Origin: an uncultured Eubacteriales bacterium
Lineage (GTDB): Bacteria > Bacillota > Clostridia > Saccharofermentanales > UBA5734
Direction of reading: 5' to 3'
DNA: 37,675 nucleotides
Assembly (NCBI GenBank): GCA_903919045.1
Contig: CAIXGU010000043.1
Span: forward strand, 1 to 37,675
Under the pieces are notes generated by a model. That model searched no databases. It was not told the origin of the DNA and saw nothing but the letters and a program-made list of their open reading frames with translations. The translations under genes and the position numbers were made by a program. Shown here in pieces: positions 4,031 to 16,960 of the stretch (positions are counted from its first letter, which is position 1; the number at the start of each line of letters is the position of its first letter).

Positions 4031-4053
4031 CTCCGGAGAACCATCGATATAAT
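4025..4053 (+). promoter_or_regulatory. Consensus sigma-70/sigma-A promoter of tRNA-Leu
   Basis: TTGACA (4025-4030), exactly 17 bases, then TATAAT (4048-4053): a perfect consensus promoter. The expected start is near 4060, about 35 bases before the mature tRNA, which fits a strongly expressed stable RNA. The spacer holds the palindrome CTCCGGAG (4031-4038), part of a 9-bp inverted repeat with 3991-3999. Confidence 0.9.
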
Positions 4054-4094
4054 CAACCATGCCTTCGGAGACCCCCCTTGCCGGAGGACCGCTC

Positions 4095-4177
4095 GCGGTC
4101 ATGGCGGAACTGGCAGACGCGCACGTTTGAGGGGCGTGTGGGCAACCGTATGGGTTCAAGTCCCATTGACCGCACCA
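4095..4177 (+). tRNA. tRNA-Leu, anticodon GAG
   Basis: Folds as a class II tRNA. The acceptor stem pairs GCGGTCA (4095-4101) with TGACCGC (4167-4173), the discriminator is A and CCA is encoded (4175-4177). The D arm has the leucine-type TGGCGGAACTGGCAGACGCG. The anticodon stem CACGT/GCGTG encloses loop TTGAGGG, giving anticodon GAG with G37, which reads CUC/CUU. A long variable arm follows, and the T arm is ATGGG-TTCAAGT-CCCAT. Confidence 0.95.
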
Positions 4178-13401: not shown

Positions 13402-14478
13402 TCACGTCCCCCCTTCCGGACGGGCGATCGCACGGATCCTCTCGAGGATCTCGCGCTGGGTGGGCAGCATGCCGCCCATCCGGCCGTGGAACTGCACCGG
13501 CTTCGCGCCGTTCACGGCGAGGCGCACGTCCTCGACCATCTGCCCGGCGTTCAGCTCGACGGACAGGAGCGCCTTCACGGACGGGTGTGCGGCGGCGGCC
13601 GCCACGGCCTCCGACGGGAACGGCCAGAGGGTGATCGGACGGATCAGGCCGACCTTGATCCCCTCCTCCGCCGCCTGGCGGATCACGTTCCTCACGATCC
13701 GCGCGGTGGTCCCGAACGCCGTCACCACGACCTCGGCGCCTTCGACGCCGACGCTCTCGCAGCGGACCTCGTTCCGGGCGATCTTCGCATACTTCGCCTG
13801 CAGGTGGAGGTTGTGCGCCTCGAGGCGCTCGGGGTCGATGTAGATCGAGGTGATCGTGTTGTGGAAGCGCTTCCCGCCCGTCCCGACGGTCGCCCACGGC
13901 TTGCCGGCCGCCGTCGCGTCCTTCGGCTCGAGGTGCGAGACGGGCTCCATCATCTGGCCGAGCGTGCCGTCCGCGAGGATCAGGACGAGCACGCGGTAGC
14001 GGTCGGCGAGGTCGAACGCCTCGACGGTCAGCTGATACAGCTCCTGGACCGACGCCGGCGCGAGGACCGCGTTCCGGTAGTCGCCGTGCCCGCCGCCCTT
14101 GGTCGCCTGGAAATAGTCTCCCTGGGCGGGCAGGATTCCGCCGAGCCCCGGACCGCAGCGCGCGACGTTCACGACGACGCACGGCAGCTCCGCGCCCGCG
14201 ATGTAGGAGAAGCCCTCCTGCTTGAGGCTGATGCCGGGGCTCGAGGACGTCGTCATCACCCGCGCGCCGGCTCCGGCCGCCCCGTAGACCATGTTGATCG
14301 CGGCGACCTCGCTCTCGGCCTGCAGGAATACCCCGCCGACGCTCTTCATGCGCTTCGCCATGTAGTGCGCGATCTCGGTCTGCGGCGTGATCGGGTAGCC
14401 GAAATAATGGCGGCAGCCCGCGCGGATCGCGGCCTCCGCGATCGCCTCGTTGCCCTTCATCAGGACCCTGTCCGGCAA
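13402..14478 (-). CDS. vorB: 2-oxoacid:ferredoxin oxidoreductase, alpha subunit (VorB-like)
   Basis: A 358-residue alpha subunit. The N-terminus (VLMKGNEAIAEAAIRAGC, then FGYPITPQTEI) and the block QAESEVAAINMVYGAAGAGA closely match the group annotated as VorB, the 3-methyl-2-oxobutanoate (branched-chain) enzyme. A 2-oxoglutarate specificity (KorA) cannot be excluded. The enzyme converts a 2-oxoacid, CoA and oxidised ferredoxin to acyl-CoA, CO2 and reduced ferredoxin. I chose the TTG at 14476-14478, which gives the usual short tail before LMKGNEA and has AGGGGAG eight bases upstream; a GTG three codons earlier sits too close to that site, and the ATG at 14460 would trim conserved residues. 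Confidence 0.92.
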   Translation of the reverse strand: MPDRVLMKGNEAIAEAAIRAGCRHYFGYPITPQTEIAHYMAKRMKSVGGVFLQAESEVAAINMVYGAAGAGARVMTTSSSPGISLKQEGFSYIAGAELPCVVVNVARCGPGLGGILPAQGDYFQATKGGGHGDYRNAVLAPASVQELYQLTVEAFDLADRYRVLVLILADGTLGQMMEPVSHLEPKDATAAGKPWATVGTGGKRFHNTITSIYIDPERLEAHNLHLQAKYAKIARNEVRCESVGVEGAEVVVTAFGTTARIVRNVIRQAAEEGIKVGLIRPITLWPFPSEAVAAAAAHPSVKALLSVELNAGQMVEDVRLAVNGAKPVQFHGRMGGMLPTQREILERIRAIARPEGGT

Positions 14479-14495: not shown

Positions 14496-14702
14496 CTACT
14501 TCTCGACCTGGATCACTTCGTCCGGGCACATGATCGCGCAGAACGCGCACCCGATGCACTGGTCCATCGCCTCGACGCCCGCCGGGTGGAACCCCTTGGC
14601 GTTCAGGACGTCGCAGCGCATGGCGACGATATGCTTCGGGCAGACCTCCACGCAGAGTCCGCAGCCCTTGCAGCGGTCCTCGCGGAATTCGACTCTGGCC
14701 AT
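14496..14702 (-). CDS. 2-oxoacid:ferredoxin oxidoreductase, delta subunit (2[4Fe-4S] ferredoxin)
   Basis: A 68-residue ferredoxin-like subunit with two complete cluster motifs, CKGCGLCVEVCP and CIGCAFCAIMCP, which should ligate two [4Fe-4S] centres and pass electrons from the TPP subunit to free ferredoxin. The ATG at 14700-14702 is preceded by GGAGG six bases away; the frame is open farther upstream but that part crosses the promoter. It is the first gene of the four-subunit operon, 17 bp before the alpha subunit. Confidence 0.95.
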   Translation of the reverse strand: MARVEFREDRCKGCGLCVEVCPKHIVAMRCDVLNAKGFHPAGVEAMDQCIGCAFCAIMCPDEVIQVEK

Positions 14703-14772: not shown

Positions 14773-14778
14773 ATTATA
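14773..14778 (-). promoter_or_regulatory. -10 element of the 2-oxoacid oxidoreductase operon promoter
   Basis: Exact TATAAT on the minus strand, about 70 bases before the delta-subunit ATG and inside the 145-bp gap after the ATPase gene. No convincing -35 is seen at 16-18 bp. Just upstream, around 14797-14817, lies a short imperfect hairpin (CACCGG / CCGGTG) that might end the ATPase transcript, but no T run follows it. Confidence 0.5.
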
Positions 14779-14847: not shown

Positions 14848-15582
14848 TCAGGCGCCGTTCTCGTAAGGGTAGGTCAGGTGCCGCCGCATCCGCAGCAGCG
14901 GCGTCCCGTCGGGCAGCGCGTCCCTCCACTCGGGCGGCAGCAGGGCGTCGACGCCCGACGCGAAGGCGAGCGGGATCCCCCGTCGCGCACCCGCCGTCCG
15001 GACCTCGCCGACCGAGTCGAGGAGGAGCCGTCCGTCGGATTCGCCGAGGAGATTGGTGTTGTCGACGAGGGCGTCGACCGGCAGCCCGGAGGCCGCCGCG
15101 AGCTCGTCCGCCATGTCCGCGATCCGCCCCGCGTCCGCCGTGAAGGGCCGGCTGCGGTTCACGACCATCAGGACGAAGGCGCCGCACCGCGCGAACCCGT
15201 CGCGCAGCGACGAGACGACGCGCGCGCCCATGTCCTCCCCACCGATGTCGAAGACGAAGGTCCCCGCCGCGTCGAAGGCGCCGTGGACCTCGCCCGGGAC
15301 CGCCGGCACGTCGGCATTGGTTCCGGCGGTCGAGGGCGCGACCACGCGCACGCCCGCGGCCTCGAGGGCCGCCCGCGCGTCGTTCGAGCGGAAGTAGGGG
15401 TTGATCGTGTCGAGGTCGACGAGCGTCACGTCGTCTCGCGTGCGGCGCAGGAGCAGGGCCAGGTTCACGGCCACCTCGGACTTGCCGCTGCCGTAGGCGC
15501 CGAGGACGACGAGGACCCGGGCGGCCGACCATGGGCCGACGGGTCCTGCGGTTGCGTTCTCACGGGCGGGCGCTTCCCTCAT
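14848..15582 (-). CDS. P-loop ATPase associated with the 2-oxoacid oxidoreductase operon
   Basis: A 244-residue single-domain P-loop protein of the MinD/Mrp (SIMIBI) kind. The Walker A loop is GAYGSGKS (28-35); it has the standard GxxGxGKS form and not the KGG signature of ParA/MinD. It is followed by TLVDLDTINPYFRS (about 53-66), similar to the switch I region, and FVFDIGGEDMGAR as Walker B/switch II. Related proteins of unknown function sit next to VorB-type operons in Clostridia, so a role in assembling, loading or regulating that iron-sulfur enzyme is an inference. The ATG at 15580-15582 is the only possible in-frame start before the P-loop. No ribosome site precedes it, and a TATAAT ends just six bases upstream, so the mRNA is probably leaderless. 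Confidence 0.78.
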   Translation of the reverse strand: MREAPARENATAGPVGPWSAARVLVVLGAYGSGKSEVAVNLALLLRRTRDDVTLVDLDTINPYFRSNDARAALEAAGVRVVAPSTAGTNADVPAVPGEVHGAFDAAGTFVFDIGGEDMGARVVSSLRDGFARCGAFVLMVVNRSRPFTADAGRIADMADELAAASGLPVDALVDNTNLLGESDGRLLLDSVGEVRTAGARRGIPLAFASGVDALLPPEWRDALPDGTPLLRMRRHLTYPYENGA

Positions 15583-15588
15583 GTCCAG

Positions 15589-15597
15589 ATTATAGCA
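15589..15597 (-). promoter_or_regulatory. Extended -10 promoter placing the ATPase start codon at +1
   Basis: TGCTATAAT on the minus strand (TATAAT at 15589-15594, TG at 15596-15597) is followed by six bases and then the ATG at 15580-15582. A start seven bases after the -10 would fall on the A of ATG. No -35 match is seen, as expected for an extended -10. Confidence 0.65.
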
Positions 15598-15623
15598 TGC
15601 ACGTCCGGCGTACCTCCCGTTCC

Positions 15624-15653
15624 TTGCGCGGCGCGCGTCCGCTGTGCTACAAG
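15624..15653 (+). promoter_or_regulatory. Possible promoter of apgM
   Basis: TTGCGC (15624-15629), 18 bases, then TACAAG (15648-15653). Both boxes are partial matches. It would start transcription near 15660, about 38 bases before the apgM ATG, and is divergent from the ATPase promoter. Confidence 0.3.
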
Positions 15654-15697
15654 AGGGAAAAGGGACGCGGCACCCCGCGCCCGGACCGGAGGACCCC

Positions 15698-16960
15698 ATG
15701 GACGCCTCGACCCGCAGCTCCGTCAAGCACCTGATCCTGCTCGGCGACGGGATGGCCGACCTGCCGGTCCCCGAACTCGGCGGACGGACCCCCCTCGAGG
15801 TCGCACGGAAGCCCGCGATCGACGCGCTCGCCCGCCGCTCCGCCTGCGGGCTGGTCCGCACCGTCCCGTACGGCATCCCGCCGGGAAGCGACAGCGCGAA
15901 CCTGTCCGTCATGGGGTACGACCCCCGGCAGTGCTATACGGGCCGTTCCCCGATCGAGGCCGTGAGCATGGGCATCGACCTCGCGGACGGCGACGTCGCC
16001 TTCCGCTGCAACCTCGTGACGCTCTCCGAGGGCGCCGCCTATGCCGGCCGCACGATGGTCGACTACTCCTCCGACGAGATCCCGAGCGAGGAGTCCGCCG
16101 TGCTGATCGGCGCGCTGAACCGCGCCTTCGCCGACGACGAGATCCGCTTCTTCCCGGGCAGGAGCTATCGGCACTGCATGGTCTGGAAGGGCGGTCCGAA
16201 GGACTGCGTCCTCGTCCCTCCTCACGATATCCTGACCTGCGGCATCGCCCCCCACCTGCCCGCCGGCCCCGGCGCGGACCGCCTCCTGCGCATGATGGAG
16301 GCCTCCGTGAAGATCCTGTCCGACCACCCCGTGAACCGGAAGCGCGTCGCCGCCGGCCTCCGCCCCGCGAACGCCGCCTGGATCTGGGGCCAGGGCACCC
16401 GTCCGAAGGTCGAGCCGATCGCCGACCTCTTCGGGCTCAGGGGCTCCGTGATCTCCGCAGTCGACCTTGTGAAGGGCCTCGGCATCCTCGCGGGCCTGCG
16501 CGTCGTCGACGTCCCGGGCGCGACGGGCACCCTCGAGACCGACTTCGCCGGCAAGCGGGACGCCGCGATCGCCGAGTTCGCGTCCGGCCAGGACTACGTC
16601 TACCTGCACGTCGAGGCGCCCGACGAGTGCGGCCACCGCCACGAGGTCGACCGCAAGGTCGAATCGATCGAGCGCATCGACGCCGAGCTCGCCGCGCCCC
16701 TGTTCGCCTGGCTCGAGCGGAACCGGGCGGAGACGGGTCAGGAATACCGCATCCTCGTGCTGCCCGACCACCCGACCCCGCTGCCCCTGCGCACGCACAC
16801 CGCCGACCCCGTGCCCTTCGTCTGGCACGACAGCGCCCGGCCCGACGCCGCGCGCGGACGCGCCGCGGAGCGCTACGACGAGGCGTCGTGCGCCGCGACC
16901 GGGTACTTCGTGGAAGAGGGGCATACGCTGTTCGGGCGGTTCGTGGCGGGCGGATTCTAG
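15698..16960 (+). CDS. apgM: 2,3-bisphosphoglycerate-independent phosphoglycerate mutase, ApgM type
   Basis: Interconverts 3- and 2-phosphoglycerate in glycolysis; a member of the alkaline-phosphatase superfamily (archaeal-type iPGM) and not the longer GpmI. The 420-residue product is full length. Metal and catalytic elements are visible: LILLGDGMADLP (about 11-22, metal Asp), GSDSANLSVMGYDP (about 65-78, the phosphorylated serine region), YLHVEAPDECGHRHE, and LVLPDHPTPLPLRTHT with the late Asp/His ligands. The start at 15698 has GGAGG five bases upstream; an earlier ATG in frame at 15644 lacks one. Some relatives were annotated as phosphonopyruvate decarboxylase-like or homoserine kinase-like; the mutase assignment is preferred. 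It is a lone plus-strand gene that faces mutS2 tail to tail, 36 bp apart. Confidence 0.93.
   Translation: MDASTRSSVKHLILLGDGMADLPVPELGGRTPLEVARKPAIDALARRSACGLVRTVPYGIPPGSDSANLSVMGYDPRQCYTGRSPIEAVSMGIDLADGDVAFRCNLVTLSEGAAYAGRTMVDYSSDEIPSEESAVLIGALNRAFADDEIRFFPGRSYRHCMVWKGGPKDCVLVPPHDILTCGIAPHLPAGPGADRLLRMMEASVKILSDHPVNRKRVAAGLRPANAAWIWGQGTRPKVEPIADLFGLRGSVISAVDLVKGLGILAGLRVVDVPGATGTLETDFAGKRDAAIAEFASGQDYVYLHVEAPDECGHRHEVDRKVESIERIDAELAAPLFAWLERNRAETGQEYRILVLPDHPTPLPLRTHTADPVPFVWHDSARPDAARGRAAERYDEASCAATGYFVEEGHTLFGRFVAGGF

Follow-up and report, generated by a model that had tools for sequence, protein, structure and literature searches.

An extended -10 box next to the start codon of a P-loop ATPase gene predicts a leaderless mRNA in an uncultured Clostridia bacterium

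The start codon of a P-loop ATPase gene in an uncultured, GC-rich Clostridia bacterium lies six bases downstream of a consensus -10 box, and this geometry is conserved in a sister species of the same genus, suggesting that the extended -10 promoter places the transcription start (+1) on the A of the ATG and that the ATPase mRNA is leaderless, a reading to which a probability of about 0.87 is given. RNA polymerase would use the extended -10 promoter TGCTATAAT, which has no -35 element, and would take the A of the ATG as its first base; the mRNA would begin with 5'-AUGAGG, and the ribosome would bind the 5' AUG directly without Shine-Dalgarno pairing. We infer where transcription starts and how the ribosome loads from what is seen in the sequence: the geometry of the -10 box and the ATG is unique in the intergenic region and is conserved in the sister species, a ribosome site is lacking, and the genus has a class of genes arranged in this way. 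The confidence in a leaderless mRNA comes from the focal geometry and its conservation. The ATPase gene is very probably a conserved further case of a minority start mode already known in Clostridia, involving no new mechanism. It would provide a compact case of how, within a single bacterial family, a gene switches between initiation with a Shine-Dalgarno site and leaderless initiation, and of a sequence-only prediction in uncultured GC-rich Clostridia that is checkable by comparison.

Geometry of the ATPase start region

The window, which is the whole stretch of DNA analysed here (37,675 nucleotides), has a GC content of 70.8% and contains nine TATAAT hexamers. The minus strand from 15597 to 15580 reads TGC TATAAT CTGGAC ATG, that is, TGCTATAAT, six bases and the ATG (Table 1), confirming the extended -10 box ending six bases before the ATG that had been described in the initial annotation. 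The motif TGNTATAATN6ATG occurs once in the assembly (2.64 Mb, 308 contigs), at this site. At 71% GC, chance is expected to give 0.09 TATAAT hexamers at a spacing of 5–8 bases per 2400 starts, the latter figure being an assumed gene number. The focal TATAAT is the only hexamer with at least four matches to TATAAT in the divergent intergenic region. The TG is located one base 5' of the -10 box, and no TTGACA-like hexamer (at least three matches) is found at a spacer of 14–20 from the box, which fits an extended -10 promoter. Since the flanking neighbour is divergent, the promoter must be either in the intergenic region, which has one -10 candidate, or within the mutase gene, and read-through from an upstream neighbour on the same strand is not at hand. 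On the mutase side, a conserved -10-like stretch, CCGCTNTGCTANAAG, at 15638–15653 on the plus strand faces the ATPase promoter.

Table 1. Features of the ATPase start region and its neighbourhood
Feature	Position	Strand	Basis
P-loop ATPase gene, 244 aa, CbiA/MinD/ParA-like, under the Pfam cut-off	14848..15582	-	profile scan
ATG start codon and predicted transcription start (+1 = A at 15582)	15580..15582	-	sequence geometry
Spacer CTGGAC, six bases; 4 of 6 bases changed in the sister species	15583..15588	-	alignment
-10 box TATAAT, 6 of 6 consensus matches	15589..15594	-	hexamer scan
TGC extension of the -10 box (extended -10 promoter, without a -35-like hexamer)	15595..15597	-	scan and alignment
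Divergent intergenic region, 115 bp, ATPase versus phosphoglycerate mutase	15583..15697	.	gene positions
Cofactor-independent phosphoglycerate mutase (PhosphMutase, Metalloenzyme), divergent	15698..16960	+	domain scan
TATAAT between the ATPase gene and the ferredoxin/Vor genes, shared with the sister species; probably a separate promoter	14773..14778	-	
4Fe-4S ferredoxin subunit, first gene of the Vor-type cluster	14496..14702	-	domain scan
2-oxoacid:ferredoxin oxidoreductase subunit (POR_N, PFOR_II)	13402..14460	-	domain scan

Over the 20 nt preceding the ATG, the strongest pairing with the anti-Shine-Dalgarno tail has an energy of -3.0 kcal/mol, compared with a median of -3.4 kcal/mol and a lower quartile of -5.8 kcal/mol for 2000 random 20-mers of the window, these energies being based on an assumed 16S tail that may differ from that of this genome. 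The focal pairing is therefore no better than the window median, and the start has no usable Shine-Dalgarno site. None of the codons ATG, GTG, TTG, CTG, ATT, ATC and ATA occurs in frame between the ATG and the P-loop, GAYGSGKS, at residue 28 of the protein. Both results agree with the initial annotation, in which no Shine-Dalgarno fit and no other in-frame start before the P-loop had been noted; its further statement that ribosome sites are strong at the other genes was compared with the TATAAT sites of the window, several of which are followed by AGGAGG-like stretches. The protein scores 23.7 bits with the CbiA profile against a Pfam gathering cut-off of 25.4, and so it resembles CbiA/MinD/ParA-type P-loop ATPases but is not filed as a member. 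A sequence search of the PDB with the ATPase gave no match at E values up to 1.

Start regions of the orthologues and alternative readings

The ATPase is present in 36 of the 58 genomes searched, the focal genome included, and in 19 of the 23 family genomes. One family locus (L006) is cut off before the start, and the start regions of 18 family orthologues, with start codons picked by eye, were compared, a comparison that the initial annotation had proposed as a check. The orthologue of the sister species (G001), which has 70% identity, shares CATGCTATAATC and CATGAGG with the focal gene, and four bases between them differ, its spacer being CGCCCC. The distance from TATAAT to ATG is 6 nt in the focal genome and in G001 and 7 nt in G007, a low-GC family member (locus L012: TGATATAAT, seven bases, ATG), whose ATPase gene has a possible independent leaderless start. 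The anti-Shine-Dalgarno energies of these three orthologues (focal, -3.0; G001, +1.9; G007, +0.6 kcal/mol) are the three weakest of the 18, whereas in the other 15 TATAAT is absent within 60 nt and the energies range from -3.7 to -11.3 kcal/mol (Mann-Whitney p 0.004 for the 3 against the 15). This contrast is clear for nine of the 15, with energies from -7.2 to -11.3 kcal/mol, while two (-5.8 kcal/mol) equal the lower quartile of the background and four (-3.7 kcal/mol) are near its median. Most family members start the ATPase gene with a ribosome site, and across the family the orthologues appear to have either a close -10 box or a ribosome site, one in place of the other. The leaderless prediction made in the initial annotation is strengthened by the conservation of the geometry in the sister species despite a changed spacer, by the weakest ribosome-site pairing in just the 3 of 18 orthologues with a TATAAT at 6–7 nt, and by the bimodal spacing class in the sister genome described below.

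Leaders without a Shine-Dalgarno site exist in bacteria, and so the ATPase gene might have such a leader made from an unrecognised promoter further upstream, the TATAAT being incidental. A purine-rich GGGAGG about 30 nt upstream of the ATG could be seen in the same light, though it is too distant for a ribosome site. However, the rarity of TATAAT in the window, its standing as the sole -10 candidate of the intergenic region and the conserved distance between TATAAT and ATG make such a promoter unlikely. Bacterial RNA polymerase also picks start positions across a range of a few bases, and the sequence would look identical if initiation were shifted by one to three bases from the A of the ATG. 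A short leader of 1–4 nt, starting on the A present at -2 in the window or on a neighbour, with start positions possibly mixed, is nevertheless quite unlikely, since in the sister species, given its spacer, no purine other than the A of the ATG stands at the usual distance. In agreement with this, the base 5' of the ATG is a pyrimidine in 16 of the 18 leaderless candidates and in 19 of the 34 long-leader starts tested (p 0.03; L197 and one of the 35 long-leader rows were omitted), a bias expected for a +1 on the A.

It is very improbable that translation begins at an upstream in-frame ATG on an mRNA from an upstream promoter. The focal frame is open upstream to 15912, with ATG codons at 117, 294 and 330 nt, a TTG at 144 nt and a GTG at 279 nt, and a crude gene caller reads its codons as coding-like. 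The ATG described in the initial annotation as the only usable one is therefore unrivalled downstream as far as the P-loop but not upstream. The nearest upstream ATG overlaps the start of the phosphoglycerate mutase gene on the other strand. In the sister species, however, the frame is closed by a stop 60 nt upstream with no ATG, GTG or TTG in between, indicating that the upstream starts of the focal genome are not conserved and that the proximal ATG is the conserved start. For want of an open frame at this place in the sister species, the upstream starts were rejected. The frame is antisense to the mutase gene, which may explain its codon pattern in a GC-rich genome, and its coding-like codons are taken for a shadow of that gene.

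The Vor-type genes downstream of the ATPase gene

The ferredoxin and POR_N subunits of the Vor-type cluster (Table 1; one domain scan of the POR_N subunit began one codon further up) are followed further down by TPP-binding and POR subunits. The ferredoxin gene is located at most about 0.9 kb downstream of the ATPase gene in 17 of 19 family loci, and in the remaining two the contig ends on the ferredoxin side. The ATPase was called Vor-linked in the initial annotation, which is right for the neighbourhood, but the TATAAT at 14778, present in the sister species too, suggests that the Vor genes have their own promoter. Since the Vor cluster has a TATAAT of its own, the ATPase gene is probably transcribed mainly on its own leaderless mRNA. 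When folded, the Vor leader (14778–14702, minus strand) opens with a strong hairpin, GGACCCGG, gag, CCGGGTCC; the Vor leader of the sister species keeps the TATAAT and does not keep the hairpin letters. A tblastn query, 'va', was discarded as an out-of-frame shadow of the VorB region.

Leaderless-type starts in the genus and in other Clostridia

TATAAT is so rare in these GC-rich Clostridia that its spacing to start codons can be read genome-wide. A scan of the sister genome for TATAAT-N0-30-ATG gave 102 matches, of which 100 were listed, and a filter for coding-like frames, based on frame length and third-position GC, kept 55 of 110 pairs and dropped 55. Among the matches listed, 14 coding-like ATGs are at a spacing of 5–8, none of them with a ribosome site, while 3 are at 0–3, none at 4 and 3 at 9–16; 35 are at 17–30, of which 22 have a ribosome site. 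Two of the 14, L186 and L191, could instead start further down, at a codon with a ribosome site, and one of the three pairs at 9–16 is the second ATG of the focal orthologue; the comparison of 12 unambiguous genes at 5–8 with 2 at 9–16 among the matches listed gives a binomial p of 8e-5. In the focal genome, 7 of the 19 listed sites at a spacing of 4–8 are coding-like, all of them at 6–8, and the other 12 were dropped as short or not coding-like. A histogram of spacings in the focal genome was set aside, as it rests on 50 of 79 sites.

A Pfam domain was found in 10 of the 11 candidates submitted from the sister genome, the exception being L197 with 70 aa, and in all 6 other candidates submitted from the focal genome. 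The S4 domain of L206 (sister genome) and the DUF5685 domain of L175 (focal genome) both begin at residue 1, which fixes the start codons of these two genes. Three leaderless-type pairs are common to both genomes, namely the ATPase, an alpha/beta hydrolase-like protein (L174/L196) and an M15 peptidase (L170/L184) with different N-termini. The leaderless-type starts look like a real minority class in the genus, and the ATPase is not a lone oddity within its genus. It is conceivable, though doubtful, that the leaderless start is selected and arose more than once, independently in the genus and in the G007 lineage, and that the genus keeps a small conserved set, comprising the ATPase, the hydrolase-like protein and the M15 peptidase among others, possibly co-regulated through loading at the 5'-AUG.

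The signal of this class is modest in unbiased gene samples. In 400 kb of the sister genome with 349 called genes, counting ATG starts only and -10-like hexamers with at least 5 of 6 matches, such a hexamer is at a spacing of 5–8 in 9 of the 349 genes, compared with 5 at 0–3, 2 at 9–12, 1 at 13–16, 1 at 17–20 and 4 at 21–24. The excess at 5–8 is near 2% of genes above background, a crude gene-caller estimate. When GTG and TTG starts were allowed in the gene-caller run, 14 were at 5–8 against 12 at 0–4. The same method applied to 170 kb of the focal genome gave none of 125 genes at 5–8, the focal gene being missed because the caller extended the coding signal of its frame upstream to 15921. The run with GTG and TTG starts likewise missed the focal gene in its sample of the focal genome.

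Counts of TATAAT sites at spacings of 5–7 and 10–12 are 36 and 11 in the genus (24 and 4 in the sister species, 12 and 7 in the focal genome), but 1149 and 1017 in the other 21 family genomes, and so leaderless starts as a property of the whole family are unsupported. The class-wide comparison covered 23 of 244 other genomes, picked by eye for low counts (60 or fewer at 10–12), and gave 1237 against 992; the genus differs from these 23 with a Fisher p of 0.004. The highest ratio among the 23, 77:29, belongs to G284, a Clostridia genome of another family, which may use leaderless starts more often.

The accessible parts of published 5'-end studies put leaderless transcripts at about 2–3% in three solventogenic clostridia (PMC9045289), at 15 genes in C. 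difficile (PMC7438776) and at 4% of intergenic sense TSSs in C. phytofermentans (PMC5171806), while a fourth study claims 212 leaderless transcripts among genes with identified proteins in C. acetobutylicum (PMC4533764). The view of the initial annotation that leaderless genes are uncommon in Clostridia is thus shared by three of these four sources, as excerpted. Like the transcripts mapped in the first three, the starts described here form a minority class, but they are predicted from sequence. According to the portions available of Zheng et al. 2011 (PMC3160421), leaderless genes occur in 56 of 209 Firmicutes genomes at an average of 4.2%, a TA-like -10 signal near the start codon replaces the Shine-Dalgarno site, as here, and a TG is found 5' of the -10 box in some low-GC genomes, e.g., Lactococcus. 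Those cases are concentrated in Lactobacillales and Mycoplasma, whereas the present genus is GC-rich and belongs to Clostridia. In the leaderless transcriptome of Mycobacterium tuberculosis (PMC3898074) the mRNA likewise begins at the start codon, but the title of that paper calls it extensive, whereas the class amounts here to about 2% of sister-genome genes in a crude sequence sample. Since the published rates are mostly 2–4%, the size of the leaderless class in the genus is ordinary. A search of one literature library found no paper on leaderless starts with Saccharofermentans.

At a spacing of 4, none of 6 sites in the sister genome and none of 5 in the focal genome has a coding-like frame. 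Several TATAAT-ATG sites with this spacing elsewhere in the genus have TTGACA boxes and may be promoters of RNA genes. In the window, at 4048–4177 on the plus strand, a TTGACA-TATAAT promoter is located directly 5' of a tRNA-Leu (GAG) gene.
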